From a virus, in IMG/VR virus record IMGVR_UViG_3300025132_000262, positions 1 to 25,791 of that record: DNA of 25,791 bases; one strand, 5' to 3'. Position numbers and translations under genes: made by a program. This document shows, piece by piece, positions 3,328 to 25,791 of this stretch; position 1 is the stretch's first letter, and every line of letters begins with the position of its first letter. The notes under the pieces are model-generated. The model was not told where the DNA came from, made no database searches, and saw only the letters and a list, made by a program, of their open reading frames with translations.

Positions 3328-3347
3328 TTTTGTTTACACCCTTATCC
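3328..3347 (+). promoter_or_regulatory. Degenerate relative of the phage promoter
   Basis: TTTTGTTTACACCCTTATCC shares its first 15 bases with the three phage promoters except for one base, then loses the CTATAGG start region. It lies in non-coding DNA upstream of the attP-like core. It could be a decayed or weak promoter, or chance. Without the TATAG start box I would not expect efficient initiation. Confidence 0.25.
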
Positions 3348-3430
3348 AAAAGCTAGACATTTTGTCCTGAAGAATATATCCTTTGAGATATGGAGATTGT
3401 GAGTTTCACCCAAAAAGGCAGGTTTTTAGC

Positions 3431-3493
3431 ACAACGGACTTAAAATCCGTTGAGATAACTCTCGTGTGGGTTCGAGTCCCACCCCGGGCACCA
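3431..3493 (+). other. attP core: 3' end of tRNA-Leu(UAA)
   Basis: This is the 3' part of a class II tRNA. The anticodon arm has stem ACGGA (3434-3438)/TCCGT (3446-3450) and a 7-base loop CTTAAAA, giving anticodon UAA. The long variable arm is GAGA-TAAC-TCTC (3452-3463). The T arm is GTGGG-TTCGAGT-CCCAC (3466-3482), followed by acceptor strand CCCGGGC, discriminator A and CCA at 3491-3493. No matching GCCCGGG 5' half or proper D arm lies upstream, so it is not a functional tRNA gene. A tRNA 3' end in a phage with a tyrosine integrase 1.7 kb downstream is the classical attP: integration restores the host tRNA gene. Exact core borders need the host sequence. Confidence 0.85.
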
Positions 3494-3510
3494 CTAAAAA
3501 TCGCAAAGGA

Positions 3511-3550: not shown

Positions 3551-3594
3551 GAAACAGTGAGTATATATAAACAAGAAAAAGTAGTAAAAAACAC

Positions 3595-3613
3595 TTTGTG
3601 TACACCCTATAGG
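3595..3613 (+). promoter_or_regulatory. Phage RNA polymerase promoter P1
   Basis: TTTGTGTACACCCTATAGG is the first of three near-identical copies (others at 7941 and 19633). Taking G3612 as +1, positions -17 to -1 match the T7 consensus at 9 of 17 bases, including the whole CTATA. The copy precedes the lysogeny/early operon. The presumed transcript starts GGAAUAAUUC, 29 bases before the first good ATG. Confidence 0.85.
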
Positions 3614-3640
3614 AATAATTCTTCTAAAGGAGTCACAAAT

Positions 3641-4869: not shown

Positions 4870-5237
4870 TGTTGAAAAACTATAAATTAAGGAAAAGGAC
4901 ATTACAGGATTTGAAGGATATTATTTGTGACTTGATAGATGATATAAATGATTCTCAATGTGAGCATAATAAATCAAGGTTTAGTTATTGTAGAAATGAG
5001 TTCAACACTAAAACTATGCACAAATTAATCGGCATGGCGGTGAGTGAATATAGCGACAGAATAACTCAATCGTATGGTGAAGAATTGCAACACAATAAAA
5101 GAATTTATCTTAAATATGCCAATCATGCTGAAAACTTGCACTACGCTATAAAACAATATAAAGAAGAATTTGAAATAGCGCATGAGTTTACACTCACCCC
5201 TAATTGGTGCTGTAAAGATATGGAGGAGGGCAAATAA
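4869..5237 (+). CDS. Unknown protein upstream of integrase
   Basis: This 122-aa protein is mostly helical, lysine-rich at the N-terminus (MLKNYKLRKRTLQDLKDI) and Tyr/His-rich later. Its ATG overlaps the preceding stop by one base and uses AAGGAGAG as ribosome site. Four Cys residues are scattered (two in the final PNWCCKD segment) without a clear zinc-finger spacing. Its stop overlaps the integrase ATG, so translation of the integrase is probably coupled to it. No family is recognised. Confidence 0.6.
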   Translation: MLKNYKLRKRTLQDLKDIICDLIDDINDSQCEHNKSRFSYCRNEFNTKTMHKLIGMAVSEYSDRITQSYGEELQHNKRIYLKYANHAENLHYAIKQYKEEFEIAHEFTLTPNWCCKDMEEGK

Positions 5238-6166
5238 TGTATACAGTAATTGATTTCGTTCACGAATATGGCAAATACATTTGGAGTGAAGGCACAAAAA
5301 AACATTGGATTGATTCAGTGAAGAAGATGCAAAGGTTTTCTGAGTTCTCAGATTTCAATACAAAACCTATGGATTCATACAAAGCATCTGACATCAAAGA
5401 TTTTTTCCATAGTCTAAGAGAATCAGGCTTATCTGACTCAACGATTAATCGGTATGCATCTGCAATTAGTAGTACATTTGTATTTGCTGTTGATGAAAAA
5501 GTCATACAAAAGTATGACAAGCCATCTATCAAGTGGAAAAAAGCACCACCAGAATCAAGACCTCATTATTTTAGTTTTGAGGAAATCGCATTGATCAATG
5601 AGAAACTGGCAAACCACCCAAAGAATCCTTGGATGGCAGATTACTTTGAGATTGCAATAGCAACTGGTATGAGAAGAGGTGAGATTATGTCTATTGGTCG
5701 TGATCCAGAAACCATAGACAGAGATACTACTTATGGTGTTGTAAATCACAAAAAGAAAACTGTAATGCTATACAGAACGAAAAATGGTAGTAATCGTGAA
5801 GTCGATATGTCTGCTTGTTGGCACAATATCAAGAACCTAAAGTTTGAACCAGGTTACTTTTATACTGATCATGGTTTCTACACAACATGGCGAGAAGTAG
5901 CAAAAGAGATTTGTGGTGAGGACAAAATCAAACTTAAAAACTTTGTCTTCCATGTAGCACGACATACTGCCGCCTCAATAATGATAAACACCATGAATCT
6001 ACCCACGATTAAAGTGCAAAAGAAACTTGGTCATACATCCATAAACACGACTGCAAAGTATGTTCATGTAGAAGGTGATATAGATGTAAGAAGAGAAGAG
6101 TCTAAAGCACTCCATAATCTATGTTTTTCTAGTAAGAAAACAACAAGACAAGCGGAGGTGGCATAA
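5237..6166 (+). CDS. int: Tyrosine recombinase, phage integrase
   Basis: This 309-aa integrase would recombine attP with a host tRNA-Leu gene. The N-terminal core-binding SAM-like domain spans residues about 1-100 (SDIKDFFHSLRESGLSDSTINRYASAIS). The catalytic domain follows with R146 (ATGMRRGEI), probable K182 in the beta hairpin, H239 and R242 (FHVARH), H266 (LGHTSINTTAKY) and the nucleophile Y275, nine residues after H266 as usual. All catalytic positions are present, so it should be active. The start ATG follows TGGAGGAGGG. Eight bases of that site (5221-5228) are complementary to a loop in the RNA predicted at 19651. The attP-like tRNA end lies 1.7 kb upstream. Integrase upstream of RNA polymerase is the arrangement known from some marine T7-like phages. 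Confidence 0.95.
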   Translation: MYTVIDFVHEYGKYIWSEGTKKHWIDSVKKMQRFSEFSDFNTKPMDSYKASDIKDFFHSLRESGLSDSTINRYASAISSTFVFAVDEKVIQKYDKPSIKWKKAPPESRPHYFSFEEIALINEKLANHPKNPWMADYFEIAIATGMRRGEIMSIGRDPETIDRDTTYGVVNHKKKTVMLYRTKNGSNREVDMSACWHNIKNLKFEPGYFYTDHGFYTTWREVAKEICGEDKIKLKNFVFHVARHTAASIMINTMNLPTIKVQKKLGHTSINTTAKYVHVEGDIDVRREESKALHNLCFSSKKTTRQAEVA

Positions 6167-7940: not shown

Positions 7941-7960
7941 TTTTGTGTACACCCTATAGG
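7941..7960 (+). promoter_or_regulatory. Phage RNA polymerase promoter P2
   Basis: TTTTGTGTACACCCTATAGG is identical to P1 from the third T onward and lies 26 bases before the RNA polymerase ATG. The predicted +1 is G7959. A promoter of this type directly upstream of the polymerase gene implies positive autoregulation: once a few molecules are made, the enzyme amplifies its own transcript and the replication genes downstream. Confidence 0.88.
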
Positions 7961-7986
7961 TAATCCCAAGTAAAGGAGACATAGGT

Positions 7987-10488
7987 ATGAAAGACGTGAA
8001 TCTTATTGAAGAGATTACTAGAGAACAAAAGATGTTCTCAGAAGGAAACCAACGGTATAAAGACAGAGTAGAGAAGAACAAAACTACTTCAACTCAAAAA
8101 CACCCTCACAACATAATATCTAAAGCATTACCTAGAGTGGCTAAAGCACTAAAGGTATTCATAAGTGACGAATTGAATAAATCTTCAGGTAGAAGGTATT
8201 CGTGGATAGAAGATATTAAAACTATAGATACTGATATCTTAGGTTTTATAGGTTTGAACTGTTGTATGGATGCAGTAGCAATGAACCAAAGTTTTACTAC
8301 TTGTATTACCAAGATAGGACTTAGGATAGAACTTGAAGTCTGGGCCAATGGACTTCGAGACAAAGATAAGGCATTGGCTAAAAGAATTGAAAGCCAGGTA
8401 ATCAAAAGCCACTCAAGTGAACGCTATCGAATTAAGGCAGCAAGGATCATTGCATTCAAAGAAGGCTATGTTCAAGAGAAGTGGACTGATGAACGAAAAG
8501 TCAAAGCCGGTTCACCAGTAATCAATGCAATCATGGAGCATTCCAAAGTATTCGATACCTGGTTACAAAGAACAAAAAGTAACAACACAGTTAAGAAGGT
8601 CGGATTGACTACTGAAGCATCTGCCTTGTTAGCCAAATTAGAATACGAAGATTCTTGGGCAGAACCCATGTTACAACCCATGATTATTCCTCCCAAAGAT
8701 TGGGATTCCACGTCTACCGGATGTTATTACGATGAAGTGACTGCCAGTCATGTTCCATTGATTAGGAAGAACCCATCGAACACGAGTGCCTGGAAGAACC
8801 AAAATAAAACTGTCATACATCAAATTAAAAATGAGAATGAATTACCAGAGTACATTGAAGCATTGAATATGTTGCAAAGTACAAAGTTGGTTATCAATGA
8901 ACACGTGGTAGAAGCAATTACCTGGTGCTGGGAAAACAATAAACACTTAGGCAAGTTCCCAATCAAAGAATACTTACCGAACTTAAAACGTCCAGACGAT
9001 TGGGATGATATGTCTCAATTTGATAAGAAAGGATGGACCATCGATGCCAGGAACATTCGTGAGAAGAACCGAGAGATTGATGGTGCCAGGGCAGTGATGG
9101 CCCAGGATCTAAAATGTGCTGAAGACTTAGCACAATATGATGAATTTTATATGCCCTGGAATTTCGATTTTAGAGGCAGAGTCTACCCGGTAACACACTT
9201 TTGCTACCATCGTGATGATCACGTCAAAGCTATGTTCATGTTTAAGAACACTTGTAAACTAGATGAAGATTCAAAGTATTGGTTAGCAATTCACATAGCT
9301 AACGTAGGTGATTACGATAAGATATCGAAGCAACCCTTTAGTGAAAGAGTGAAGTGGGTATTAGAGAACGAAGAAAAGATACTGGATGTGGGCCAGGACT
9401 ATGAGAAGAGTTTTGACTGGTGGTCACAAGCCGACAAACCGTTCCAGTTTTTAGCAGCTTGTCGTGAGTATTTCTTGGCAACCATCAACCCCGATTATGA
9501 AACTGGTTTACCAATATCTTTAGATGCAACCAACAGTGGTACACAACATTATGCTGCTGCCAGTCTGGATGCTAAAGAAGGATACATGGTTAACCTGGTG
9601 CCAACAGATTCACCGCAAGACATTTATCAACGTGTGGCCGATAACGTCAACAAAGCACTAGAAAAAGATAAAGATAATCCATTAGCTAAAACCTGGTTAA
9701 AGTATGGTGTTGGTCGTTCTGAAGTAAAACGAAATACCATGACTTACTCATACTCGTCTAAAGCATTCGGTATGAAAGAACAACTAATGGAAGACTTGAT
9801 GAAGCCATTGCAAAAAGATGTCGATAGAAAGATACGCAAGGTTCATCCATTCGGTGATTCTAAAGAACAAAGTCAGGCAGCAACTTACCTGGCCAACATC
9901 AACTACAAGGTAATCAAAGATTTAATTAAGAGTGCTGAAGGTGGTATGCAGTTTTTCCAGGCTATTGCCGGAATACTTGCAGACCAGGGCAAAGAGATTT
10001 CCTGGACCACACCAGTAGGATTTCCTGTCGTGCAAAAGTATTGCCAATGGAAGTCAAAGAAAATCAGACCGTTCCTTTATGATCGTGCTGCCAATGTCTA
10101 CAAAAGATCACAAGTATCAATTCGAGAGAAGGATGAATACCGGGTAAACAAGAGAAAGAATAAAGCAGCTATCAGTCCTAATGTGATTCACAGTATGGAT
10201 GCTGCCCATTTACTTAAAACAATTATTACTGGCAAAGACAATGGCATAAAAGACTTTTGTGTCATACACGATTCTTTTGCTACTTTGCCATGCGATACCT
10301 GGATGCTATTCCATTGCATCAGAAGAAGTTTTATTGAGATGTATAAAGACTGGTGTATGTATGAAGACTTCTTATTTCAAACTAAACAACAAATGAAGAA
10401 CCCAAGTGATCCAAATATCAAAGATATACCCAAGAAGGGTAACTTAGATTTGGAGAGCATCATGGAGTCTGACTATTGTTTTTCATGA
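7987..10488 (+). CDS. T7-like single-subunit RNA polymerase
   Basis: This 833-aa DNA-directed RNA polymerase is of the T7 gp1 type (883 aa in T7). The catalytic set is complete: D513 in LDATNSGTQHYAA (T7 D537), R577, K581 and Y589 in RSEVKRNTMTYSYSSKAFG (T7 R627, K631, Y639), and D762 in VIHDSFATLP (T7 D812). The constant offset of 50 residues from the fingers to the C-terminus (ESDYCFS, compare FAFA-type ends) shows collinearity; the shortening lies further N-terminal. It should recognise the three TTTGTGTACACCCTATAG promoters. ATG 7987 follows AAAGGAGACATAGG. The gene is rich in CCWGG pentamers, with the 5' end of this gene marking where their density rises. Confidence 0.98.
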   Translation: MKDVNLIEEITREQKMFSEGNQRYKDRVEKNKTTSTQKHPHNIISKALPRVAKALKVFISDELNKSSGRRYSWIEDIKTIDTDILGFIGLNCCMDAVAMNQSFTTCITKIGLRIELEVWANGLRDKDKALAKRIESQVIKSHSSERYRIKAARIIAFKEGYVQEKWTDERKVKAGSPVINAIMEHSKVFDTWLQRTKSNNTVKKVGLTTEASALLAKLEYEDSWAEPMLQPMIIPPKDWDSTSTGCYYDEVTASHVPLIRKNPSNTSAWKNQNKTVIHQIKNENELPEYIEALNMLQSTKLVINEHVVEAITWCWENNKHLGKFPIKEYLPNLKRPDDWDDMSQFDKKGWTIDARNIREKNREIDGARAVMAQDLKCAEDLAQYDEFYMPWNFDFRGRVYPVTHFCYHRDDHVKAMFMFKNTCKLDEDSKYWLAIHIANVGDYDKISKQPFSERVKWVLENEEKILDVGQDYEKSFDWWSQADKPFQFLAACREYFLATINPDYETGLPISLDATNSGTQHYAAASLDAKEGYMVNLVPTDSPQDIYQRVADNVNKALEKDKDNPLAKTWLKYGVGRSEVKRNTMTYSYSSKAFGMKEQLMEDLMKPLQKDVDRKIRKVHPFGDSKEQSQAATYLANINYKVIKDLIKSAEGGMQFFQAIAGILADQGKEISWTTPVGFPVVQKYCQWKSKKIRPFLYDRAANVYKRSQVSIREKDEYRVNKRKNKAAISPNVIHSMDAAHLLKTIITGKDNGIKDFCVIHDSFATLPCDTWMLFHCIRRSFIEMYKDWCMYEDFLFQTKQQMKNPSDPNIKDIPKKGNLDLESIMESDYCFS

Positions 10489-13804: not shown

Positions 13805-14311
13805 ATGTTAAGAGTGTTTGACATTTGTTCAGGCATTGGTGGTTTTAGTCTTGCATTACACGCAACAGGTGGTTTTGAAACTGTTGGATTTTGTGAGTTC
13901 GATGAATATTGCCAAAAGATACTGAAAAAGAATTTCCCTGATACACCAATTTTTAATGACTTAAAGGATCTAGCTAAAGATGAAGAAACAATCAGAACTA
14001 TTCCCGACCACGACCTCATCTGCGGAGGAGTGCCATGTCAAAGTTGGAGTGCCGCAGGTAAACAAAAAGGCACAGAAGATGACCGCCACCTCTGGCCGGC
14101 AATGTTTGAAATTGTTAAAGGCAAAGGACCCACTTATGTTGTTGTCGAGAACGTTAATGGTTTCGTCACCTTGGGAGGGGCCGATCTCGTATCAAATGAC
14201 TTGGAAGCCGAAGGCTACGCTACGGCGGCGTTTATTATTCCAGCTTTATCCACAAAAGCTCCCCACCGAAGGGATCGAGTCTGGATCATCGGGAAAAAAA
14301 TCCAAGAGTGA
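13805..14311 (+). CDS. C5-cytosine DNA methyltransferase, catalytic N-terminal part
   Basis: The 168-aa frame contains motif I (DICSGIGGF, residues 6-14), E31 of motif II, the catalytic PCQ motif with C78 in GGVPCQSWSAAGK, ENV at 115-117 and motif VIII (APHRRDRVWIIG, 152-163). It then stops four codons after an A7 run at 14294-14300. The target-recognition region and motif X follow in the +1 frame (14301-15368). With six A instead of seven, the reading would continue as WIIGKKSKSDTWATP, giving one protein of about 520 aa. This is therefore a frameshifted gene, a sequencing homopolymer error, or a gene needing transcriptional slippage. ATG follows AAAAGGAG. Alone it lacks the parts needed for specific methylation. 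Confidence 0.88.
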   Translation: MLRVFDICSGIGGFSLALHATGGFETVGFCEFDEYCQKILKKNFPDTPIFNDLKDLAKDEETIRTIPDHDLICGGVPCQSWSAAGKQKGTEDDRHLWPAMFEIVKGKGPTYVVVENVNGFVTLGGADLVSNDLEAEGYATAAFIIPALSTKAPHRRDRVWIIGKKIQE

Positions 14312-15368
14312 TACTTGGGCAACTCCAACCACACAAGAGATTGAACATCCTAATGCTGAACTTACTGATACTGGCAGAAGAAAATCTAAAGATGGCAAGA
14401 GCAGCCATAGTTTAAATTTAGCCGATCAAGTGAATATGTGGCCAACTCCAACCAGCGACCAACCAGGTGATGGTGAATTTTTAGGAAAATTACAAACTAA
14501 GGATGGGAAACCACCACAACGAAATCAAAGAGCATACGATCCCAAAACAGGCAAACACACACAAATAACACTCAACAGAGCAGTGAAGTTGTGGCCAACT
14601 CCAAGAGTATCCGATACTGAGGGTGGTGTTGTTAAGAATGTTGAAAAGAAAAATGACTCATATTCCAGAGTCAATAAAAAAGGTGTCAGATTCGGAGTCA
14701 AACTAAAAGATGCTGTTGGCTATGAAGAAGATAGAACTTGGCCAACTCCAATTGTTGGAGATGCACACTTGTCCTCTACAAAAGAAGTCGCACAAAAAAG
14801 ATTGAAGGAAGGAAAAGTAACATTAAGCAGAGCAGTACAATCTGAAACTTGGCCAACTCCAAGCAGCAGAGATTACAAAGGTGGTCATGGAACGATTGTA
14901 GAAGAAGATGGTAAATACTACCGGGTTTCTAATACAACTGGCACTAAGTATGGCGCAAGGTTAGATGCACAAGTTGAGAAGATGGAAGCGGATAGAACTT
15001 GGCCAACTCCAAGATCATCGGAATGGAAAGATACTGGGCCAGTAGGCTCTAAATCACATACACACATGGATAAGAAAGGGTATTTATGTACAAAAACTAA
15101 AGATCCCAATGAGCCTAAAGGTGCACTTAATCCTGATTGGGTGGAATGGTTAATGGGATATGCACCGGGTTATACCAATCCAGAGTATACCGAGCCAATG
15201 CAATTAGAAGATCATTTAGGTTTTGAAAGTGAACCAGACATACCCAGAGTAACCACCAGGAAAGAACATCGAGTGAACCGATTGAAGTGTTTAGGCAATT
15301 CGATTGTGCCGCAGATTATGTATGAGATTGGCAATGCCATATTGGCTGACTACAACAAGGAGAAATGA
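14301..15368 (+). CDS. C5-cytosine methyltransferase, target-recognition and C-terminal part
   Basis: This frame continues the methyltransferase after the frameshift at the A7 run. It contains six W-[AP]-TP units, a feature I know from the C-terminal halves of many phage C5 methyltransferases. After them come NPDWVEWLMGYAPGYT and the motif X-like CLGNSIVPQIMYEIGNAIL at the C-terminus. The frame is open further upstream (from ATG 13980), but there it merely overlaps the catalytic part and gives low-complexity nonsense, so no independent start is proposed. No ribosome site lies near 14301. The product probably depends on fusion with the N-terminal part. The gene ends 1 base before the next ATG. 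Confidence 0.8.
   Translation, partial: SKSDTWATPTTQEIEHPNAELTDTGRRKSKDGKSSHSLNLADQVNMWPTPTSDQPGDGEFLGKLQTKDGKPPQRNQRAYDPKTGKHTQITLNRAVKLWPTPRVSDTEGGVVKNVEKKNDSYSRVNKKGVRFGVKLKDAVGYEEDRTWPTPIVGDAHLSSTKEVAQKRLKEGKVTLSRAVQSETWPTPSSRDYKGGHGTIVEEDGKYYRVSNTTGTKYGARLDAQVEKMEADRTWPTPRSSEWKDTGPVGSKSHTHMDKKGYLCTKTKDPNEPKGALNPDWVEWLMGYAPGYTNPEYTEPMQLEDHLGFESEPDIPRVTTRKEHRVNRLKCLGNSIVPQIMYEIGNAILADYNKEK
14316..15012 (+). repeat. Six in-frame TGGCCAACTCCAA repeats in the methyltransferase
   Basis: TGGCCAACTCCAA occurs exactly at 14439, 14592, 14739, 14850 and 15000, and with one change (TGGGCAACTCCAA) at 14316. Spacings are 123, 153, 147, 111 and 150 bases, all multiples of three. Each encodes the W-x-TP motif. 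Identity extends through synonymous positions while the DNA between copies differs, so either conversion among copies or a DNA-level role of the word keeps them alike. Confidence 0.85.
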
Positions 15369-17634: not shown

Positions 17635-18343
17635 TGCTGACTTATACCTCTATCGGGCAGCCAGTGCTGCTGAAGATGAAACCGATTGGGGTGACGATAT
17701 CTGGAGTCTGTCTACAGACCTAAAGACAGCAAAAGAAATCTTTACTAACCAGGTAACTGAGTTCCAAGAAAAACTGAATGTAAATACAGTGTATATGTGT
17801 TTATCTTCCAGAAATAACTACAGAAAAACCCTATACGAACCTTACAAAAGTAGTCGTAAGAAAACACGTAAACCAGTAGGGCACAAAGCACTTATCGACT
17901 GGTGCCACGATACATACAACACGATTACCCAAGACACATTAGAAGCTGATGATGTCATGGGTATCCTGGCCACTGATCCGGATGCTAAAGGTAAACGCAT
18001 CATTGTATCTGATGATAAAGATATGAAAACCATACCAGGACAATTGTATCGCCCAGGTGAAGACGAACTGTTTACCATCCATGCAAAAGAAGCTGATGAA
18101 AACTTCTACATACAAACACTGACTGGAGATACCACTGATGGATACCCAGGGTTAGTTGGTGTTGGACCAGTGAAGGCAAAAAAGATCCTGGGAGAACGTC
18201 CGGACTGGATGTTAGTTCGTAATGCCTATCTAAAAGCTGGTTATACATTAGAAGACCTATTGGCCCAGGCAAGGTGCGCCAGAATATGTCGCTACTCAGA
18301 TTGGGATTTCACTAATGAAAAAGTTATTCCCTGGAGTCCATGA
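17579..18343 (+). CDS. T7 gp6-like 5'-3' exonuclease (FEN family)
   Basis: This 254-aa nuclease belongs to the flap-endonuclease/5'-exonuclease family. It would remove RNA primers and degrade host DNA during replication and concatemer formation. Metal-binding acidic residues are visible: D19 and D21 (ILFIDADLYLYR), E122/D124/D125 (TLEADDVMG), D145/D146/D148 (IIVSDDKDM), and D184/D187 in LTGDTTDGYPGLVGVGPVKA, the helix-3-turn-helix motif. T7 gp6 is 300 aa, so this version is shorter. AAAGGAG precedes the ATG. It closes the T7-type replication block, after DNA polymerase. The following small gene overlaps its stop. Confidence 0.92.
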   Translation: MAYLKNIVENTKAPILFIDADLYLYRAASAAEDETDWGDDIWSLSTDLKTAKEIFTNQVTEFQEKLNVNTVYMCLSSRNNYRKTLYEPYKSSRKKTRKPVGHKALIDWCHDTYNTITQDTLEADDVMGILATDPDAKGKRIIVSDDKDMKTIPGQLYRPGEDELFTIHAKEADENFYIQTLTGDTTDGYPGLVGVGPVKAKKILGERPDWMLVRNAYLKAGYTLEDLLAQARCARICRYSDWDFTNEKVIPWSP

Positions 18344-18534
18344 TGCCTAGATACCTATTCAAACTCACACAAAAACAACCAGAAGAAATGCTTATACAGG
18401 CACCTAATTTAAGAGTAGCAAGATTGATGGTCCTGGATAAGTTCACAAAGAAACCAAAGAAAGAATCTGACTATGCAATAGAACTACGTTTAGTCAGTCA
18501 AAAGAAATTGCAGCAGAGACAATTCGACAAATGA
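18340..18534 (+). CDS. Unknown 64-aa basic protein
   Basis: The ATG overlaps the exonuclease stop (ATGATG). The product is basic (MMPRYLFKLTQKQPEEMLIQ, then RVARLMVLDKFTKKPKK) with a strand-helix-strand feel. Its stop overlaps the next start as ATGA. The tight ATGA coupling on both sides argues for a real gene. No motif gives a function. Confidence 0.55.
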   Translation: MMPRYLFKLTQKQPEEMLIQAPNLRVARLMVLDKFTKKPKKESDYAIELRLVSQKKLQQRQFDK

Positions 18535-18779
18535 AAAGAGAAAGACAGTGCACCGTTACCGGGCAAAAGATAACACCTGATCAAACTTGGATATCAGTGG
18601 ATATGTTCACTGGTTCAATCATCGAGTGTGAAGACTACATAGCAACCCAAGAGTGGCACTTACAAGGCTACAAAAACATAAAGGTAGTTTCAGCAGAGAC
18701 ACCTACAACAATAAGGAACCAGAGCAATGACCAAGAAGAGCAGCAACCTCCAGTCTACTGCGCTATCTGCGAAGACTAA
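18531..18779 (+). CDS. Unknown small protein with N- and C-terminal cysteines
   Basis: This 82-aa protein starts in an ATGA overlap. The first 50 residues (MKRERQCTVTGQKITPDQTW onward) look folded. The C-terminus is polar and ends CAICED. One cysteine at residue 7, one near residue 33 and the pair CAIC at the end could bind a metal, but the spacing matches no finger I know. The last 53 bases overlap the DUF3310 gene, so the low-complexity tail (NQSNDQEEQQPP) may be shaped by the overlap. Function unknown. Confidence 0.5.
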   Translation: MKRERQCTVTGQKITPDQTWISVDMFTGSIIECEDYIATQEWHLQGYKNIKVVSAETPTTIRNQSNDQEEQQPPVYCAICED

Positions 18780-19086
18780 GGAAAACAAGTGGACCAAGCT
18801 ACAAAAAGAACACTCAGCATTACCAAGTAAAGAAGAGTGGGATCAAAACCTACTTAATGTATCTAGCAACATCAATCCAACTCATTACAAGTCAGGTGAC
18901 ATTGAGTGTATTGATGCCATGTGTTCTGCTTTTGGTCGAGACCAAGTCGTTAAGTGGGCCGAGATAAATGCATTCAAGTATATCTGGAGAATGCATAAGA
19001 AAGGACCGCGCAATGACAACATTGAGAAAGCTATATGGATGCTTGAGTTTGCCCTTGGTCGTGATCCTAGAGATAAATCCTCATGA
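18727..19086 (+). CDS. DUF3310 protein, possible nucleotide kinase-like
   Basis: This 119-aa protein carries a DUF3310 domain at residues about 49-112: INPTHYKSGDIECIDAM, then WAEINAFKYIWRMHKKGP, then NDNIEKAIWMLEFALGRD. This domain is widespread in phages and occurs in the T7 gp1.7 nucleotide kinase, so a role in nucleotide metabolism is possible. The domain alone does not prove catalysis. The N-terminal 45 residues are polar and overlap the previous gene. AAGGAACC precedes the ATG at 18727. The stop overlaps the next start as ATGA. Confidence 0.8.
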   Translation: MTKKSSNLQSTALSAKTKENKWTKLQKEHSALPSKEEWDQNLLNVSSNINPTHYKSGDIECIDAMCSAFGRDQVVKWAEINAFKYIWRMHKKGPRNDNIEKAIWMLEFALGRDPRDKSS

Positions 19087-19352
19087 TAAAGAACCTGGAA
19101 AGAATTGGTGGTGCCAAGAAAACCAGGCAAAACAAATATGGATTACGAAGGACACACATAAAGATAGATGATTCATTGTTAGCTGGTTCACTCTTCATCT
19201 ATCTAAGCAGATTAATTGATCCAGCAATAGGCAATGAAGACTATGGATTAGCAACCAAAGACATTGCCCAAGCACACGAAGCAGTCATAAGAACTGTAGC
19301 CACATACATACGTGTAACCGAAGAACACTATTACAACAAAGAGAGAATCTAA
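19083..19352 (+). CDS. Unknown 89-aa protein
   Basis: The gene starts in an ATGA overlap with the DUF3310 gene. The N-terminus is basic (MIKNLERIGGAKKTRQNKYG). The rest appears as three helices with SLLAGSLFIYLSRLIDPAI and IAQAHEAVIRTVATYIRV. The first hydrophobic stretch is short and likely buried rather than membrane-spanning. The stop codon overlaps the following ATG (TAATG). No family recognised. Confidence 0.55.
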   Translation: MIKNLERIGGAKKTRQNKYGLRRTHIKIDDSLLAGSLFIYLSRLIDPAIGNEDYGLATKDIAQAHEAVIRTVATYIRVTEEHYYNKERI

Positions 19353-19624
19353 TGGACACTACAATATTTACCATAGTAGTAAGCTGCCATATGTTTACAT
19401 TGGCTAGAGATGCTCATGTCGCTAGATACATGAGAGATAAGATCAACTATGAGAACCAAGTAACAACAGAGAAACCTATATTTAAAAGGAATAGGTTTGT
19501 AGAACGAATACTCATGATATGCCCAGGATTTAAGACCTATGATAATCCTGAGTACCTATTAGAGATACAAAATGAGGCCTATGGAAACATCATGACTAAT
19601 CATGAGGATACAGAAGAAACCTAA
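19352..19624 (+). CDS. Unknown 90-aa protein, last gene of the replication block
   Basis: The ATG overlaps the previous stop. A hydrophobic N-terminus (MDTTIFTIVVSCHMFTLARD) could be a short membrane anchor or signal-like segment. The remainder is polar with KRNRFVERILMICPGFKTYD in the middle and an acidic C-terminus. It ends 8 bases before promoter P3 and so closes the replication operon. Without recognisable motifs the function remains open. Confidence 0.55.
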   Translation: MDTTIFTIVVSCHMFTLARDAHVARYMRDKINYENQVTTEKPIFKRNRFVERILMICPGFKTYDNPEYLLEIQNEAYGNIMTNHEDTEET

Positions 19625-19632
19625 GACAAATG

Positions 19633-19652
19633 TTTTGTGTACACCCTATAGA
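19633..19652 (+). promoter_or_regulatory. Phage RNA polymerase promoter P3
   Basis: TTTTGTGTACACCCTATAGA is the third copy of the phage promoter, identical to P2 for the first 19 bases. The predicted +1, G19651, is exactly the first base of a hairpin (GAGAT...ATCTC), which supports both the start site and the RNA call below. No protein gene follows for 580 bases. The structural module beginning at 20231 has no other copy nearby. Confidence 0.85.
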
Positions 19653-19929
19653 GATATTCCTCTGGTGATCTCACTCGACCAGTAACCAACTCACACATTG
19701 GTAAACATGAGTGACATGAGTTGACTTTAGTTTATACCTACAACTATTACTCCCTAATCTCCTAACTATAGTTGTTTATTGTCTACTTAAGTATGTTGAT
19801 ACTCCTCCAACAACATAGATCACTGAGGGTTTCTCATTAGTAGTCTTGAGTCACATGATAGCTATGGGATTGTTCGTCTTCCTATGGCGACTGTGGTGGC
19901 TCTGAGGACTATGTTTAGTCCCTTTTTTT
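19651..19929 (+). ncRNA. Candidate structured small RNA with CU-rich loops
   Basis: Between P3 and an intrinsic terminator lie 279 bases without any plausible ORF. Four hairpins precede the terminator. A: GAGAT/ATCTC (19651-19655 with 19668-19672), loop ATTCCTCTGGTG. B: CAACTCA/TGAGTTG (19687-19693 with 19717-19723). C: ACAACTAT/ATAGTTGT (19740-19747 with 19768-19775), a 20-base loop containing CTCCC and TCTCCT. D: TATGTTG/CAACATA (19792-19798 with 19811-19817), loop ATACTCCTCCAA. All stems are perfect. Loops A, C and D are pyrimidine-rich, like the anti-Shine-Dalgarno loops of regulatory RNAs. Loop A is complementary over 10 bases to the 3TM-holin ribosome site, loop D over 8 to that of integrase, and loop C over 7 to those of endolysin and primase-helicase. 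An alternative is an ordinary structured 5' leader of the late mRNA. Direct expression evidence is lacking. Confidence 0.6.
19906..19929 (+). terminator. Intrinsic terminator of the small RNA
   Basis: GGACTA (19906-19911) and TAGTCC (19916-19921) form a perfect 6-bp stem with a TGTT loop. One C and seven T follow at 19923-19929. It would end the P3 transcript at about 279 nt. Late genes downstream would need read-through. Confidence 0.8.
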
Positions 19930-19944
19930 ACTTAAAAGTTGGCC

Positions 19945-20042
19945 TCTGAGACCAATAAATTTCACAGCTACCATAAAAACAAGCCTAATGTCTCAGAAGT
20001 CACCTTTTATTTCCTTTTTCCGCAACGGATATTGAATCCGTT
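19945..20042 (+). repeat. Inverted repeats in the late leader
   Basis: TCTGAGAC (19945-19952) pairs with GTCTCAGA (19990-19997) across 37 bases. Further on, AACGGAT (20024-20030) pairs with ATCCGTT (20036-20042) around ATTGA and is followed by TT. The second hairpin resembles the tRNA anticodon arm in the attP-like site but lacks U33, so it is not a tRNA. From 20043 to 20230 I see no gene; that stretch holds a (TTG)5 tract near 20174 and two AGTTAAAGAG copies at 20156 and 20194. Confidence 0.5.
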
Positions 20043-20230
20043 TTGACACACTTTGGCTTAAACACTGGTACTCCAGAGGATCGACATATTTTTTGGGACT
20101 CCTTCCTGGAAAAAGCAGCCTACCTGGTCAAATCACTTTGCTGACTTCAAAAAAGAGTTAAAGAGTTTTTGCTTGTTGTTGTTGTTGTGATCCAGTTAAA
20201 GAGAGTCCAAAATTTCCCAAGGAGCCACTC

Positions 20231-20398
20231 ATGCCCAAAATCACACTTGAAGAGGATTTCTTTGACAATGGTTACTTCCACGTAACCCCAGAGTTAGAAA
20301 TCGGTATCTCCAGATTCGGCAAAAACAAAAACAAACTCCATACCATAAGACTATCCTGGTTAATCTGGAACCTATGGTTTGAGTTTACCAAAACATAA
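20231..20398 (+). CDS. Unknown 55-aa protein opening the second structural module
   Basis: The ATG follows CCCAAGGAGCC at good spacing. The product starts MPKITLEEDFFDNGYFHVTP and has a strand-rich first half and a tryptophan-rich end (LSWLIWNLWFEFTKT). That end is hydrophobic but only about 12 residues long, so it is more likely a peripheral or buried segment than a full membrane span. It is the first ORF after the RNA/leader region and precedes the fibre-like gene by 18 bases. No family recognised. Confidence 0.6.
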   Translation: MPKITLEEDFFDNGYFHVTPELEIGISRFGKNKNKLHTIRLSWLIWNLWFEFTKT

Positions 20399-20416: not shown

Positions 20417-21010
20417 ATGGCCTTAGAAACAGGCACCTACATTGATAGCTTAAATGCTTCCAACCCAGCAGCCACCGATGCACTCTCACAAGCTGACGAC
20501 CACTTACGTCTAATCAAGTCCACAGTAAAAGCCACGTTCCCTAATGTATCTGGTGCAATCACATCGACTCATACAGAGTTAAATCTGTTGGATGGTGTAA
20601 CGTCTACTACAGCCGAACTCAATATCCTGGACGGTGTTACGTCTACTGCTGCTGAACTCAACATACTCGATGGAGTCACCAGTACAGCTTCGGAACTCAA
20701 TTTGTTGGATGGCAGTACAGCAGGTACAGTAGTTGCCTCAAAAGCCATAGTAGCTGATGGTAACAAAGATATTAGTGGTGGTCGTAACATTACGATTACT
20801 GGTGAGATAGATGCAGCCACTTTAGACATCTCAGGTAATGGCGATGTGGATGGCACATTAGATGTGGGTGTCTTGGATTTAGGCAACTGGACCATTGACC
20901 AGGTAGGTACTGACCTAAGATTCCTCTATGATGGCACTGCGAAATTTAAGTTAACATCAGCAGGTGTAATGACAACTGTTGGTGACATTACAGCATCAGG
21001 TAGCATCTAA
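20417..21010 (+). CDS. Tail fibre-like protein with LDG repeats
   Basis: This 197-aa virion-type protein starts MALETGTYIDSLNASNPAAT and has AADDHLRLIKSTVKATFPN-like N-terminal text that is common in marine phage fibres. Four 13-residue repeats of the form TST-x2-ELN-[LI]-LDG-V/S follow at residues about 49-100. After them comes a region of short beta repeats (SGNGDVDGTLDVGVLDLGNW). The repeats suggest a beta-helical or trimeric shaft. The gene follows GAGGTAA. In standard T7 order a fibre gene would follow the internal virion proteins, not the replication block, so its place here is unusual. It may be a tail-neck or adaptor component. Confidence 0.75.
   Translation: MALETGTYIDSLNASNPAATDALSQADDHLRLIKSTVKATFPNVSGAITSTHTELNLLDGVTSTTAELNILDGVTSTAAELNILDGVTSTASELNLLDGSTAGTVVASKAIVADGNKDISGGRNITITGEIDAATLDISGNGDVDGTLDVGVLDLGNWTIDQVGTDLRFLYDGTAKFKLTSAGVMTTVGDITASGSI
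20561..20716 (+). repeat. Four tandem 39-base coding repeats
   Basis: Units begin at 20561, 20600, 20639 and 20678, each encoding 13 residues of the TSTxAELNxLDGV type. The units differ at many synonymous positions, so they are old repeats kept by selection on the protein rather than a fresh duplication. Confidence 0.85.
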
Positions 21011-21012
21011 CG

Positions 21013-22629
21013 ATGGCCCTACAAACACTTCCGGTCCGAGGACTCGGTGACATTGGTGTTATAACGGACATTGATCCTAGTGCTTTACCAACGAATGCAT
21101 ACAGTCGTGCTAAGAATGTTAGATTCGATGAAGGGAGTATCACTCGATCTCCTATCTTTAGAACCGTATTAGGTTCACTCAATTTAAACCCAAGATTACT
21201 GCATGGTGTAGAACCAGTGTCAGGCCATAGCACCGTTATAGTGGCTAGTGATACTTACGTCATCAATGAGTATTCTTCAGGTTCCCTTACAGATCGATCT
21301 GGTTCCATAAGTGCCACGAGTGCCAGTGACCTACCTTTTACGTCTACTACTTTGGCAGACATTATTTATATCAATAGAGAAGACAAAGTGCCTTCCTATA
21401 GAGCCAATGGTGGTACTAACTTTGCAGCATTGACTAATTGGGATTCCAATTGGAGAGCAAAATCTCTCAGGTCATACGGTGACTTTTTGTTAGGCATAAA
21501 TATGACAGAAAGTTCTACCAACTATTCTTCCAGGGTTAGATGGAGTGACATTACGACTGCAAATGCCATACCAGGATCCTGGGATGCTACTGATACAACC
21601 AAGAGTGCTGGGTTCAATGATCTCATTCAAATTAAGACACCATTAATCGATGGTGCAGTATTAGGTACTGTCTTTATTCTTTATTCTAAGACTGATGTTT
21701 ACCTAATGGAATTTGTAGGTGGTGCATTAATATTTAACTTCCGTAAAGTTTTTAGTGACATCGGTATTATCAATCAGAATTGTGTTGTCGAAATAGACAG
21801 TAAACATTATGTATTTGGTAATGATGATATCTATGTTCACGATGGCACCTCCAGAGAATCAATATGTGATCAAAGAACAAAAGATTACATCTTTGGTGGC
21901 CTGGATAACTCAAAGATAGACCGTTGTTTTGTGCATTGGTCTGCAGACTTAGAAGAAGTGTACTTTTGTTACCCTAGTGGTGACGATATGGTGGCATTCA
22001 GTAACAGTGATCGCTGCAATAGAGCAGCAGTGTTTAACTACAAGAATAACACCTGGTCCTTCTTGGATTTACCTAATGTTACTTGTGGCACGATTGCCAA
22101 TGTTAACTCAAGTGGTACTTATGCCAATACGTCTACTGCATACAATGTTATTGGTGGTTCGTATTTCTCACAACAAGCCAACTTCGATAGACACACATTG
22201 TTTGCTGGTGAGAACAACAGTAGCGATGGCATTACCTCAGATAAAATCTATGGATTAGATTCTGCTGACCAGGGTTCTCTATCGTTTGCTATAGATACTG
22301 AAGCAACTAAAGCACCATTTGCAGAGAGAACCGGGATAGACATGGATGAACTTGTGCCAGTAAGTGGTTACAAGATTATCAGTAAGATATATCCTCAAGT
22401 GACTACACCGAACCAGGATAAAAACTTTGTGTTTAACTTCGGTGCAGCCGATTTGATTGCCAATTCGCCTAACTATGAAAGTAACGTAACTTTCAATGCT
22501 TCTACAGATCACAAAATGGACTCCAGGGCAGCCGGTAGATATTTGTCTTACAAATTGACTACCTCAGACAACAAAGATTTTGCTTTTACAGGGTTTGATT
22601 TAGATTTAATGACTACAGGAAGAAGATGA
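21013..22629 (+). CDS. Tail hub/nozzle-like beta-rich structural protein
   Basis: This 538-aa protein is almost entirely beta. Its N-terminus has NAYSRAKNVRFDEGSITRSP. The middle contains VLGTVFILYSKTDVYLMEF, then a conserved-looking VFSDIGIINQNCVVEI and YVFGNDDIYVHDG. The end is GRYLSYKLTTSDNKDFAFTG. The order of these elements (a gene-of-ejection-type probe strand, a switch region, then a beta-propeller and a C-terminal sandwich) resembles P22 gp10, the packaged-DNA stabilisation and tail hub protein, and by architecture T7 gp12. That would place it below the portal as part of the tail tube. The similarity is by pattern only, so the exact role is moderately supported. It begins 2 bases after the preceding gene. 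Confidence 0.5.
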   Translation: MALQTLPVRGLGDIGVITDIDPSALPTNAYSRAKNVRFDEGSITRSPIFRTVLGSLNLNPRLLHGVEPVSGHSTVIVASDTYVINEYSSGSLTDRSGSISATSASDLPFTSTTLADIIYINREDKVPSYRANGGTNFAALTNWDSNWRAKSLRSYGDFLLGINMTESSTNYSSRVRWSDITTANAIPGSWDATDTTKSAGFNDLIQIKTPLIDGAVLGTVFILYSKTDVYLMEFVGGALIFNFRKVFSDIGIINQNCVVEIDSKHYVFGNDDIYVHDGTSRESICDQRTKDYIFGGLDNSKIDRCFVHWSADLEEVYFCYPSGDDMVAFSNSDRCNRAAVFNYKNNTWSFLDLPNVTCGTIANVNSSGTYANTSTAYNVIGGSYFSQQANFDRHTLFAGENNSSDGITSDKIYGLDSADQGSLSFAIDTEATKAPFAERTGIDMDELVPVSGYKIISKIYPQVTTPNQDKNFVFNFGAADLIANSPNYESNVTFNASTDHKMDSRAAGRYLSYKLTTSDNKDFAFTGFDLDLMTTGRR

Positions 22630-22630
22630 T

Positions 22631-22909
22631 ATGGCTATATCTGAAAAAACTGACCTGGTTACACCTAAATATACCCGGAGACAATTTCCACAGTTAGAAG
22701 AAAGTCTCAAATCATTCTTAGAAGGTGAGTTCCAACGGTTAGAAAACATATTAACTGCTATGGCCGATGCTCATATTGAAGCTACGGACCAGGAACCAAG
22801 TAATCCCAGGAGAGGCATGGTTAGATTTAATGTCTTACCCTGGAATCCACTCAGTAATAACAGTCAAGGACTTGTAGTTTATAACGGAACTGCATGGGTA
22901 GCAGTATGA
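22631..22909 (+). CDS. Small tail-associated protein
   Basis: This 92-aa protein has a helical, probably coiled-coil first half (FPQLEESLKSFLEGEFQRLE). Its C-terminal half ends RRGMVRFN ... GLVVYNGTAWVAV, a motif often seen in phage fibre and tail adaptor proteins. The layout of helix bundle plus small beta head suits a trimeric plug or connector. The ATG is 1 base after the previous stop and overlaps downstream by ATGA. It lies next to the hub-like gene, at the place of the P22 tail needle, but is much shorter. Role inferred. Confidence 0.55.
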   Translation: MAISEKTDLVTPKYTRRQFPQLEESLKSFLEGEFQRLENILTAMADAHIEATDQEPSNPRRGMVRFNVLPWNPLSNNSQGLVVYNGTAWVAV

Positions 22910-23199
22910 TTTTATATACAGAAGAGCAATTGAAACACGCATACGACAGCTATCGTAAAGAGCACATGAAATTAGGTATACCTATGGCTACTCAAAGCCA
23001 GTTTAGAGTCATTTACCAGAATTTATTGGATATGATCTTTTCAGAAACTTTTGAAGCTAGGTTTCCAATTCAATTTGTTGATGACTCTATATCTCCTGAC
23101 CAATGGACTAAACCAAATAACTTCATTGATGATCAAAGAAAAATTACAGACTTAAATTCTGACGGACAACCTGAAGATCAACCAATAGGAACTGATTAG
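22906..23199 (+). CDS. Unknown 97-aa structural-module protein
   Basis: The frame is open from ATG 22894. The ATG at 22906 overlaps the preceding stop as ATGA and is the likelier start. The product has a helical N-terminal half (YTEEQLKHAYDSYRKEHMKL, then FRVIYQNLLDMIF) and an acidic, proline-containing tail (LNSDGQPEDQPIGTD). It is followed after one base by a lysine-rich microprotein. No family recognised; position suggests a virion assembly or minor structural part. Confidence 0.55.
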   Translation: MILYTEEQLKHAYDSYRKEHMKLGIPMATQSQFRVIYQNLLDMIFSETFEARFPIQFVDDSISPDQWTKPNNFIDDQRKITDLNSDGQPEDQPIGTD

Positions 23200-23200
23200 A

Positions 23201-23251
23201 ATGCATTACGGTAAGAAGAAAAGAAGTAAATCCAAGAAAAAGAAAAAGTAA
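23201..23251 (+). CDS. 16-aa lysine-rich microprotein
   Basis: A short ORF encodes MHYGKKKRSKSKKKKK, with 11 of 16 residues Lys or Arg. The ATG starts one base after the preceding stop and has AGGAAC upstream. Tiny poly-lysine proteins of the form M-x-YGKKK occur next to structural genes in marine phages, in my recollection, which supports reality despite the length. It could bind DNA for packaging or ejection. Without that parallel the ORF would be too short to defend. Confidence 0.45.
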   Translation: MHYGKKKRSKSKKKKK

Positions 23252-23300
23252 GAAGAGCGAACCTTAATCACTAAACAATCACAATAGTAGGAGTAATACT

Positions 23301-24341
23301 ATGGTATGGCCAGTAGTAGCTGCACTTGGTTCAGCAGTAGTAGGCGGTATAACTGCCAGGAATGCAGCCAAAAAACAGGCAGCAGCACAAAAGTATGCAG
23401 CCGATACAGCAGCCGAATCATTTCGTTTTTCTAAACCTTATATACAAAGATCATACGACCAGGCAGAAGATGCATTAGCGTATGCAAATCAACAAGGTGT
23501 CTACCCAGGACAAACTGTTGCACCGTTAGATCCATACCAAATACTTGGTGCTAACTACCTGGGCCAATCCGGGTTAGCCGGGAGACAAGGTGCATTAGAT
23601 ATTATGGGTGCCAGTCAACCTTATGCTCAAAACTTTGCTGACATTTATGGTAGGAGTATGTCTGGTAATCCAATTATGGATGCCCAAAACTTTGCTGCTA
23701 GTAACTCACAACCACTTATTGATCGTGCTATGAGAGACAGTGCCAGAAGACTGACCGAAAGTACCTTACCTGGTATTAATATGGCTGCCAGTGCTACTGA
23801 TAATACAAATAGTTCAAGAGCCGGTATTACCGATGCACTTGCTAGACGTGATTATGATGATCGATTAGTCGATACAACTGCATTAATTGAAGATCAACTT
23901 AGAAACCAATATTTAACTCAGAACCAACAAGCAATGGATACAGCATTGGCTGCCAATAGAGGACTTGGTGCCAGTTACGCTACTGGTATTGATGCCATTG
24001 GTAACATGGGCCGACTTATTGGCACTCCAGGTGACTTGTATCGCGGTTATGATCAAGCATTACTCGATGACTCAGCTAGAAGATATGCTGAAGATCGTGA
24101 TATGCGCCTGAATAATCAGATTGCCTTCCAAAAAGGTATATTGGGCCAGGCAGATTACAGATCACCTTCAATAACACCACCAACAGTATCAACTGGTGCA
24201 GCTACATTGGGTGGTGCTATGCAAGGCTTTGGTGCATTTGCTGATATGTATGGTAAATACGGAGATTTATTTGGTAGTGCACAAAGAAAACCACAATATT
24301 CTGACGTAGAACTCTATATGTCTAATGCGGGGTACAGCTAA
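23301..24341 (+). CDS. Ejection/internal virion protein
   Basis: This 346-aa Ala/Gln/Asn-rich protein begins with a short hydrophobic Gly/Ala segment (VVAALGSAVVGGI, residues 4-16) followed by a long helix (RNAAKKQAAAQKYAADTAAE). The block PYIQRSYDQAEDALAYANQQ and the YPGQTVAPLDPYQ phrase are typical of phage DNA-transfer (ejection) proteins. The remainder is helical with repeated NQ/DA-rich segments. Such proteins leave the head first and form the conduit across the host envelope (P22 gp7/gp20, T7 gp14 classes). AGGAG precedes the ATG. The next gene overlaps its stop by one base, pairing two ejection-type genes. Confidence 0.6.
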   Translation: MVWPVVAALGSAVVGGITARNAAKKQAAAQKYAADTAAESFRFSKPYIQRSYDQAEDALAYANQQGVYPGQTVAPLDPYQILGANYLGQSGLAGRQGALDIMGASQPYAQNFADIYGRSMSGNPIMDAQNFAASNSQPLIDRAMRDSARRLTESTLPGINMAASATDNTNSSRAGITDALARRDYDDRLVDTTALIEDQLRNQYLTQNQQAMDTALAANRGLGASYATGIDAIGNMGRLIGTPGDLYRGYDQALLDDSARRYAEDRDMRLNNQIAFQKGILGQADYRSPSITPPTVSTGAATLGGAMQGFGAFADMYGKYGDLFGSAQRKPQYSDVELYMSNAGYS

Positions 24342-25791
24342 TGGGATTACCTTTACTTTTTGGATTGGGCGGTGCGTATACTGCCGGTCAGTATGGACTC
24401 TTTGATAAAGCAGCAGATTTTTACAAGAATCAATTAGTACCAAGTATTGATGAACAATTACAGCAATCAGGTGGGGTTATACCTGGTGGTCCAACTTTTG
24501 CTCCCACACTTACAAATCCAAACGCTGTTCCTGAGTCGGTAAGATTTACTGGCAATAGAAATGATCCGATTACTATGGTTAATGCCGATGGAACTGTTGG
24601 TACTATTCCAGCGACTGGACCAATTACTTCAAACCCAGGTTCAATAACAGGTACCAATGGTATCTCAGCAGCAGATTTAATTGCATTAGCTAAGAATGCA
24701 CAAACAAATCCAATACTTCCAAATTCTAATCGTACCGAGGAAATAAAAACAGGACTAAAAAACAAAATAGAAGATGCAAGGAGAAGAGGGCAAGAAGCCA
24801 TAGCAATGGGTGATATTGGTTTATATGAACAGACGCAAAAACAAATTGTAGCCCTTGAAGATGCCCTTGCAAAAGCACCTGGAGACATAGCTTCAATGGA
24901 GATGCCTACGCATACAATGCCTGATGGTACAGTCCATCCTGGTGCTACTCATGCAGACTATATGTTGATGCAAAATGATGCCGGAATGACTCGTGGATTA
25001 AAAGGTTATAACCAGATTGATCCCATTATGAAACAAGATGCTGATACCGATAGAAAACGTGATAGAACGTCTTTCGGTGAAATGCTTATGGATCGATTAA
25101 ACCAAGCAGGTTCTGGTACAGAAAAACTAATGAATAGAATGAACCAAGCAGAACCCGGAATGCTAACACCAGCAGAAAAGATGATTAGAACTGGTAGTGC
25201 TATTGTTGGTGCAGCCGATCAAGGTGGTTTAGCTGCCATGCAAGCTGCTGGAAATACTTATGGTGCTATTCAAGATTACGAAAGATTACAAGAGCAACAA
25301 CAAATAGATAACTACATAAACTCTTTGACAAGTTCTGGTCAGCTTACTGGTCAACAGCAGATTGATTTACAAAGAGAAGTTACTGCAATGGAAACACAAC
25401 TAGGTATTATGGACAATTCACTTGCTGCCCTTCGTAGTGATAGCGATTTAACAGGTCCATTTTCAGGTAACATCTTAAGATTTTGGGATAGAGCAAGCAA
25501 CAGTGACAAATCTGCATTTAGAGAAAAGATACGACTAGGTTTAGAAAAACTTAGAGTAGACGGAATACTTGAAAATACTAAAAATACTAAAGGTGCTATC
25601 TCAGATAAAGAAATGGCTTTATTTATGGCACCAACACCAAGTCTTTCTGCTCAAGAAGGTGTTTGGATAGCTTGGATTGAAGAAAGACAAAGAGTATTAA
25701 GAGATGTTATCTATAGAATGCAAAACAACATCAGAATTGATCCAGCTTCAGAAGTAGGTAATCCAATAGTTATATCTAGCGGTGCTACTTC
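24341..25791 (+). CDS. Second ejection-type virion protein (partial)
   Basis: The frame is open from ATG 24341 to the right edge, at least 483 codons, so the C-terminus is missing. The N-terminus has a small Gly-rich hydrophobic stretch (MGLPLLFGLGGAYTAGQYG). A Pro/Thr/Asn-rich linker runs from about residue 45 to 125, and helical Gln/Met-rich regions follow (EKLMNRMNQAEPGMLTPAEK, then GNTYGAIQDYERLQEQQQID). No enzyme motif is visible in the available part. Composition and coupling (TAATG) to the previous ejection-like gene suggest an internal virion protein. A minus-strand frame at 24430-24888 is only its shadow. Confidence 0.55.
   Translation, partial: MGLPLLFGLGGAYTAGQYGLFDKAADFYKNQLVPSIDEQLQQSGGVIPGGPTFAPTLTNPNAVPESVRFTGNRNDPITMVNADGTVGTIPATGPITSNPGSITGTNGISAADLIALAKNAQTNPILPNSNRTEEIKTGLKNKIEDARRRGQEAIAMGDIGLYEQTQKQIVALEDALAKAPGDIASMEMPTHTMPDGTVHPGATHADYMLMQNDAGMTRGLKGYNQIDPIMKQDADTDRKRDRTSFGEMLMDRLNQAGSGTEKLMNRMNQAEPGMLTPAEKMIRTGSAIVGAADQGGLAAMQAAGNTYGAIQDYERLQEQQQIDNYINSLTSSGQLTGQQQIDLQREVTAMETQLGIMDNSLAALRSDSDLTGPFSGNILRFWDRASNSDKSAFREKIRLGLEKLRVDGILENTKNTKGAISDKEMALFMAPTPSLSAQEGVWIAWIEERQRVLRDVIYRMQNNIRIDPASEVGNPIVISSGAT

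Follow-up and report, generated by a model that had tools for sequence, protein, structure and literature searches.

A conserved, structured noncoding RNA element heading the late transcript of uncultured marine temperate T7-like phages

Organization of the locus

The window, meaning the whole stretch of 25,791 nt analysed here (IMG/VR record IMGVR_UViG_3300025132_000262), is a 25.8-kb contig of an uncultured marine temperate phage with a T7-like RNA polymerase (RNAP). It encodes a T7-like RNAP, primase-helicase, DNA polymerase and exonuclease, a tyrosine integrase, and LUZ24-type virion genes (tail and virion protein). The genome is chimeric, with a T7-like transcription/replication module (7987-10488) and a LUZ24-like virion module (20417-25791), the latter showing a circular permutation of the LUZ24 gene order. 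A near-complete relative, G001 (49.9 kb), carries portal, scaffold and capsid genes, the portal and capsid being LUZ24-like and TerL giving a generic match only. The closest isolate matches reach about 30% for the RNAP and 42% for the exonuclease, so that no close isolate was found. A search for the host through prophages in bacterial genomes gave as its nearest match a 5-kb MAG contig at 53% identity, which is uninformative.

At the boundary between the replication and virion genes, downstream of several small ORFs (18340-19624), lies a noncoding element of roughly 700 nt. The features of the locus are as follows.

3594-3616, + strand: second copy of the phage promoter, upstream of the early/integrase genes (exact core copy, weight matrix)
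7941-7963, + strand: third copy of the phage promoter, directly upstream of the phage RNAP gene (exact core copy, weight matrix)
19633-19651, + strand: phage-RNAP promoter P3, TTTTGTGTACACCCTATAG, predicted +1 at G19651 (matrix score 36.1 of 37.8)
19651-19671, + strand: 5' strand of helix P1, starting at +1 (minimum free energy (MFE) pairs 19651/19835 to 19671/19817)
19740-19775, + strand: hairpin C, 8-bp stem, loop UACUCCCUAAUCUCCUAACU (MFE)
19793-19816, + strand: hairpin D, loop AUACUCCUCCAA (MFE)
19817-19835, + strand: 3' strand of helix P1 (MFE)
19848-19902, + strand: extended hairpin 3' of P1, overlapping GACTNNGGT-type repeats (MFE)
19906-19929, + strand: terminator-like hairpin GGACTA-TGTT-TAGTCC followed by a run of seven T (sequence scan)
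19918-19938, + strand: conserved stop/pause slot GTCCCTTTTTTTACTTAAAAG; the same slot in relatives reads TCCC[GT]ATTTGTT
19930-20213, + strand: conserved 3' module, from the slot to the first late gene (39-sequence alignment A3)
20024-20042, + strand: covarying hairpin AACGGAU-AUUGA-AUCCGUU (39 sequences)
20173-20188, + strand: (TTG)n tract, almost invariant across relatives (alignment)
20231-20398, + strand: small ORF that opens the late region (55 aa, no recognised function)
20417-21010, + strand: first recognisable virion gene, a tail protein with a LUZ24 gp57-like N-terminus (phrog_6465; tblastn to LUZ24-like phages 47-57%)

Towards the left end of the window, positions 3419-3494 hold the 3' half of a tRNA-Leu(UAA)-like gene, from the ACUUAAAAU anticodon region to CCA. 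Lying just upstream of the early/integrase genes, it is the probable attP. G001 shares this tRNA-Leu/attP layout, and in G011, a 41-kb contig, another tRNA-like sequence occupies the corresponding site. Beside attP (3328-3350) stands a degenerate promoter-like sequence, TTTTGTTTACACCCTTATCC, which reads TTTTGTGTACACCCTTATAA in G001 and TCCACCCTTATAAT in G011; the site is conserved and departs from the functional consensus after CCCT. The integrase (5237-6166) is 62% identical to that of G001, yet the exonuclease is 100% identical, and integrase alleles swap among very near relatives. At the two ends of G011 (L353 and L354) the integrase/tRNA regions are homologous and not identical, which suggests strain variation at the integration module. 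Contig ends, considered as physical genome ends, are mostly random; the similar ends of G011 represent this variable integrase/tRNA region, with no exact terminal repeat. Elsewhere (13805-15368), a DNA cytosine methyltransferase-like ORF of 168 aa is overlapped in another frame by a 462-aa ORF that seems to continue it, possibly a frameshifted or split methyltransferase.

Phage promoters and the predicted start of the late transcript

The promoter core GTACACCCTATAG occurs with zero mismatches at 3600, 7947 and 19639. On the weight matrix the three sites of the window score 36-37 of 37.8 bits, against 12.6 for the next best site and 13.4 in the shuffled genome. The promoter from which the original prediction started is therefore borne out: P3 is an exact copy of the core and one of three strong phage-RNAP sites in the window. 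It aligns in the relatives L084-L086 and L091 and is present but diverged in L006. G001 has three strong promoters by weight matrix, before the early/integrase genes, before the RNAP gene and at P3, with none in the late genes and a degenerate fourth at attP. In G014 (38.8 kb) there are four; the last of them, at 18290, lies inside the element, and the late genes are again without any. A one-mismatch scan of G008, G011 and G015 found no further phage promoter serving the late genes.

P3 is the sole phage promoter ahead of the virion genes (about 20-34 kb), so it should drive the virion operon, and the RNA that begins there should at least also be the 5' leader of the late transcript. In a scan for host-type promoters by consensus only, sigma70-type sites near the boundary are fewer than expected by chance. 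The copy immediately before the phage's own RNAP gene (7941-7987) may provide positive feedback; in LUZ100, too, a phage promoter is reported immediately upstream of the RNAP gene (PMC10134795).

Folding of the promoter-proximal region

As originally predicted, the 279 nt from 19651 to 19929 hold no credible ORF; the longest reading frame with a start codon spans 22 codons, with a TTG start and without a Shine-Dalgarno (SD) sequence. The region folds at -78.3 kcal/mol compared with -63.0 ± 4.5 in dinucleotide shuffles (z -3.42), and 1 of 200 shuffles is as stable. For the 580-nt leader, the fold stability corresponds to z -3.81.

In the MFE structure, P1 is a 17-bp helix that closes a multibranch domain opening at +1. 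A hairpin proposed earlier at 19651-19672, hairpin A, is absent from this structure; residues 19651-19671 pair with 19817-19835 instead. L091 and L006 also fold P1 and not hairpin A, which is probably wrong. The proposal that +1 falls on the first base of a structure consequently holds for helix P1 and fails for hairpin A. P1 extends over 17-18 bp from +1 in the window, L091 and L006, with differing sequences.

Hairpins C and D stand inside the domain. The stem of hairpin C differs among the three sequences, being ACAACTAT/ATAGTTGT in the window, CTACCAT/ATGGTAG in L091 and GACTA/TAGTC in L006, and the loop CTCCCT is common to all three. The search for compensatory changes proposed with the original prediction thus finds them in stem C and in the closing helix (L091, L006). 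The stem of hairpin D is identical in L084-L086 save for loop insertions. C/U-rich loops had been claimed for hairpins A, C and D; those of C and D are unpaired in the MFE fold.

The putative stop/pause slot and the extent of the element

The region ends in a hairpin and U-run (19906-19929) that had been read as a good intrinsic terminator. Both parts are present, but the stem is not conserved in relatives: GGACTA/TAGTCC becomes TAGCCC in L085 and is absent from L091 and L247. All that is kept at this place is CCC, the T-run and ACTTAAAAG. This slot reads TCCCTTTTTTTAC in the window, TCCCGATTTGTTC or TCCCTATTTTCAAC in relatives and TCCCTATCTGT in L285, where 11 nt are identical to T7. The U-rich part is TTTTTTT in the window, as against ATTTGTT or ATCTGT in relatives. 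The slot occurs once in the window and once in G001; it is similar to TCCCT|ATCTGTT, the sequence at the right-hand end of T7-type terminal repeats.

The 279-nt region is not an isolated unit, as first described, but the first part of a noncoding element running to about 20213. The unit itself is carried by three near relatives (about 95%), by L091 (78%) and, in diverged form, by L006. At the same boundary, directly before the same tail gene, about 40 distinct IMG/VR loci carry a long noncoding stretch (400-1150 nt in most); exonuclease identity among them falls as low as 53-58%. Their layout is constant: a promoter (T..ACCCT..RGAGA), a region of 90-547 nt, the CCC+U-rich slot, the (TTG)n tract and the gene. 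Promoter-to-slot distances of 90-547 nt were measured in 24 members; seven of them have 90-109 nt, too short for such a small RNA (sRNA), and in these the C/U hairpins are missing. The spacing from slot to (TTG)n tract is near constant at 212-264 nt. Because the promoter-to-slot length is highly variable, the sRNA body is the fast-evolving part, and the promoter, the slot and the 3' module are fixed.

Short repeats with a period of about 10-11 (GACTNNGGT) are frequent in the promoter-to-slot region. Examples, of about 10-11 nt, are found at L080:9690-9780, at L041:9040-9160 and in a stretch of L255 about -640 to -400 relative to the tail gene. The tandem-like repeats GACTAAGGAT, GACATGGGTCT and GACTACTATA between promoter and slot are in the style of T7 SRL/SRR. 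A CsrA sponge built on AAGGA repeats was considered and dropped because other lineages have GACTATGGT or GACATGGGTC as repeats.

Three blastn queries returned no isolate homologue of the element in the collections searched, and an exact-loop pattern scan gave no element beyond the known relatives. Against Rfam, the window and 11 relatives yield nothing at the gathering threshold and nothing relevant at E up to 5; a sub-threshold hit to the HIV frameshift element (19924-19966, E 0.16) is merely the T-run plus a hairpin. A search for tRNA and tmRNA gave none. The family is absent from Rfam, and the alignment made here allows its annotation in metagenomes.

Covariation and loop composition

In the 3' module, hairpin 20024-20042 has a covariation score of 0.468 compared with 0.182 ± 0.022 after shuffling, and the signal collapses on a one-column slide, with 88% of cells paired in register vs 29-45% once slid. 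Cells changed on both sides number 45 vs 14.3 ± 2.9 shuffled. One pair is G-U in eight sequences, and an RNA is therefore favoured over a DNA palindrome.

C/U-rich hairpin loops appear in the MFE folds of 13 of 32 members, 1.16 being expected from dinucleotide shuffles; since members share ancestry, such shuffle counts overstate significance, but the slid control and the diversity of stem sequences weigh strongly. On the reverse strand these loops are almost absent. Very long stems bearing C/U loops are found in L049, L063, L076 and L208, of which L049 and L063 are unrelated in sequence to the window. The sequence changes in P1 and hairpin C, the excess of C/U loops and the covariation at 20024-20042 together favour RNA over DNA. 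In conclusion, the locus carries a real, conserved and structured noncoding RNA element, with which the late transcript of this uncultured marine phage group begins.

The C/U-rich loops as possible anti-Shine-Dalgarno motifs

Loops of the CUCCC and CUCCUCC kind are characteristic of anti-SD motifs. The likeness to SD-sequestering loops noted in the original prediction agrees with the alphaproteobacterial sRNAs AbcR1/2, which carry the C/U-rich anti-SD motifs CUCCUCCC and UUCCCCUC (PMC8844928). Loop C (UUACUCCC) has full 8-nt complementarity to the ribosome-binding site (RBS) GGGAGUAA of the HTH gene at 6805, and this site is the same in G001. Loop D is complementary to the integrase RBS in the window, a match lost in G001. 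Pairing energies are slightly better for early than for late RBSs in G001 and G014 (p = 0.02-0.08, uncorrected) and not significantly different in the window. No conserved partner of the C/U loops was found inside the same leader. The preference for targets is thus weak, and pairing of the loops with these candidates is a lead rather than a result.

A proposed late leader with a built-in stop, and its alternatives

The reading we prefer, and to which we give about an even chance, is a late-operon leader RNA with a built-in stop or pause for the phage RNAP, arranged like lambda pR'-6S-tR' and bearing anti-SD loops. In this marine phage, temperate and T7-like, late (virion) transcription would begin in the region. 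Phage RNAP would initiate at G19651, and its first product would be a compact leader in which the P1-closed domain and hairpins C and D present the C/U-rich loops. At about +270 the polymerase would meet the conserved CCC+U-rich site, a putative phage-RNAP counterpart of lambda tR', where some polymerases may stop and free a noncoding transcript about 280 nt long. The remaining polymerases would pass the second leader module, with hairpin 20024-20042 and the (TTG)n tract, and continue through the genes for tail, ejection, terminase, portal and capsid proteins; passage beyond the stop could come from leaky termination, from concentration or from a factor. The CUCCC/CUCCUCC loops would most likely act as anti-SD elements by pairing with ribosome-binding sites, plausibly, after the onset of late transcription, those of lysogeny or early genes. 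Computation shows the identity of P3 and its uniqueness ahead of the late genes, the lack of coding capacity, a structure and C/U loops that are conserved, with compensatory changes in the structure, and the fixed placement of the slot and the 3' module. We infer the transcription, the partial termination, the RNA release and the anti-SD pairing with its targets, and a free 279-nt RNA would likewise be a predicted separate product. Of the original small-RNA proposal, the RNA element and its loops are retained, hairpin A is given up, and the extent proved too narrow.

The slot itself admits a different function. Motifs of the A[TC]CTGTT type are class II pause sites of T7 RNAP and are used in concatemer processing, and lambda late transcripts are known to cross cos. 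The region could accordingly be a genome terminus, a T7-type concatemer junction at which late transcription halts for DNA processing and packaging, with P3 in the role of phiOR, the GACTNNGGT repeats as SRL/SRR and the CCC|U-rich slot as the class II pause that closes the terminal repeat on its right. The terminal repeats of T7, T3, SP6, Syn5 and P-SSP7 (genome ends of the last from PMC3350473) terminate no more than 1 nt from A[TC]CTGTT; in gh-1 the end falls at a duplicated TATCTGT. Given the likeness of TCCC[GT]ATTTGTT in relatives, and of the 11 nt that L285 (TCCCTATCTGT) shares with T7, to these repeat ends, the junction is retained as a possible, if doubtful, reading. Adjoining short repeats with a period of about 10 nt in many relatives, the uniqueness of the slot in the genome and a contig (L233) that begins at the slot point the same way. 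Against this, the motif is missing from the terminal repeats of phiKMV, LUZ24 and LUZ100 (six of eight Autographiviridae repeats checked have it, phiKMV and LUZ100 being without), the portal and capsid are LUZ24-like with TerL merely a generic match, and the slot of the window reads TTTTTTT, not ATCTGTT. Other contig ends are not enriched at the slot, several near-complete contigs overlap at ends located elsewhere, and a DNA terminus needs no RNA-type covariation flanking it. The junction is nevertheless compatible with the leader model, as the late transcript could cross it like lambda at cos. Were the slot a T7-type pause, it would offer a sequence-level handle on genome cut sites, which are invisible in assemblies. 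A single RNA with three roles, as late-operon leader, as transcript to a T7-type junction pause and as anti-SD shut-off of early/lysogeny genes (HTH regulator, integrase), is a decidedly improbable combination; if true, it would couple late transcription, packaging and the lytic decision through one molecule.

A stand-alone, trans-acting phage sRNA whose C/U loops block host or early phage mRNAs, the late genes being served by other promoters or rare read-through, would account for the promoter, the lack of an ORF, the stable fold closed from +1, the U-run and the conserved anti-SD-like loops, which resemble CUCCUCCC of alphaproteobacterial AbcR1/2 (PMC8844928). It is unlikely: the scans gave no other phage promoter that would serve the late genes, the stem of the terminator is not conserved, several members are without the hairpins, and conserved RNA features extend past the terminator. 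Transcription from P3 might otherwise prime leading-strand replication, as at the promoter-linked origins of T7, with the structured region as melted or processed primer. The promoter does lie beside noncoding, repeat-rich sequence that borders the replication genes, but GC skew has no clear switch at the site, a conserved AT-rich segment is not seen, and covarying RNA hairpins and C/U loops would be unexpected there, so that an origin is very unlikely. Hardly credible is an ordinary untranslated spacer with chance hairpins; short hairpins and U-runs do arise by chance and the terminator stem varies, but the comparative data already contradict such a spacer, with z -3.4, compensatory changes, 13 C/U loops vs 1.2 and an order of modules that stays constant across about 40 lineages.

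Comparison with known systems

GOLLD and ROOL are large structured noncoding RNAs of phages and metagenomes; unlike them, the present element matches no Rfam model at the gathering threshold in the window or 11 relatives. It resembles AbcR1/2 and NfeR1 (PMC8844928) and the CcsR/cuckoo RNAs (PMC10253847) in displaying C/U-rich anti-SD motifs in hairpin loops, more than one per RNA. It differs from alphaproteobacterial anti-SD sRNAs in being phage-encoded, predicted to be transcribed by phage RNAP, about 280 nt long and folded into a closed multibranch domain; Rfam models of AbcR/NfeR1/cuckoo-type sRNAs gave no match at the gathering threshold in the window and 11 relatives. With the temperate T7-like phage LUZ100 the group shares an integrase, a T7-like RNAP and a promoter directly before the RNAP gene, and LUZ100 differs in that its virion genes are T7-like and in having eight phage promoters, one of them local to the capsid gene; the excerpted LUZ100 report describes no leader RNA of this kind (PMC10134795).

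T7-type junctions (T7, T3, SP6, Syn5, P-SSP7; PMC3350473) share with the element the TCCC plus U-rich, class-II-like motif, the short repeats and an upstream phage promoter. They lie between lysis and early genes, whereas the element precedes the virion genes, has a degenerate motif in the window and conserved RNA hairpins on both sides, and is known here from metagenome contigs alone; the marine phage group that carries it has no isolate in the collections searched.

In lambda, the single late promoter pR' gives rise to the short 6S leader RNA, which runs to the terminator tR' ahead of the late operon. The element is similarly built, with one late promoter between the replication and late genes, a predicted leader and a putative stop that is terminator-like in the window. 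It departs from lambda in its single-subunit phage RNAP, in a longer structured leader, and in a terminator stem that is not conserved while the CCC+U slot is; a Q-like antiterminator, as in lambda, was not identified here. T7-like phages have served as models of gene control exerted chiefly by promoters, and a conserved structured RNA heading the sole late transcript would add an RNA layer to it.
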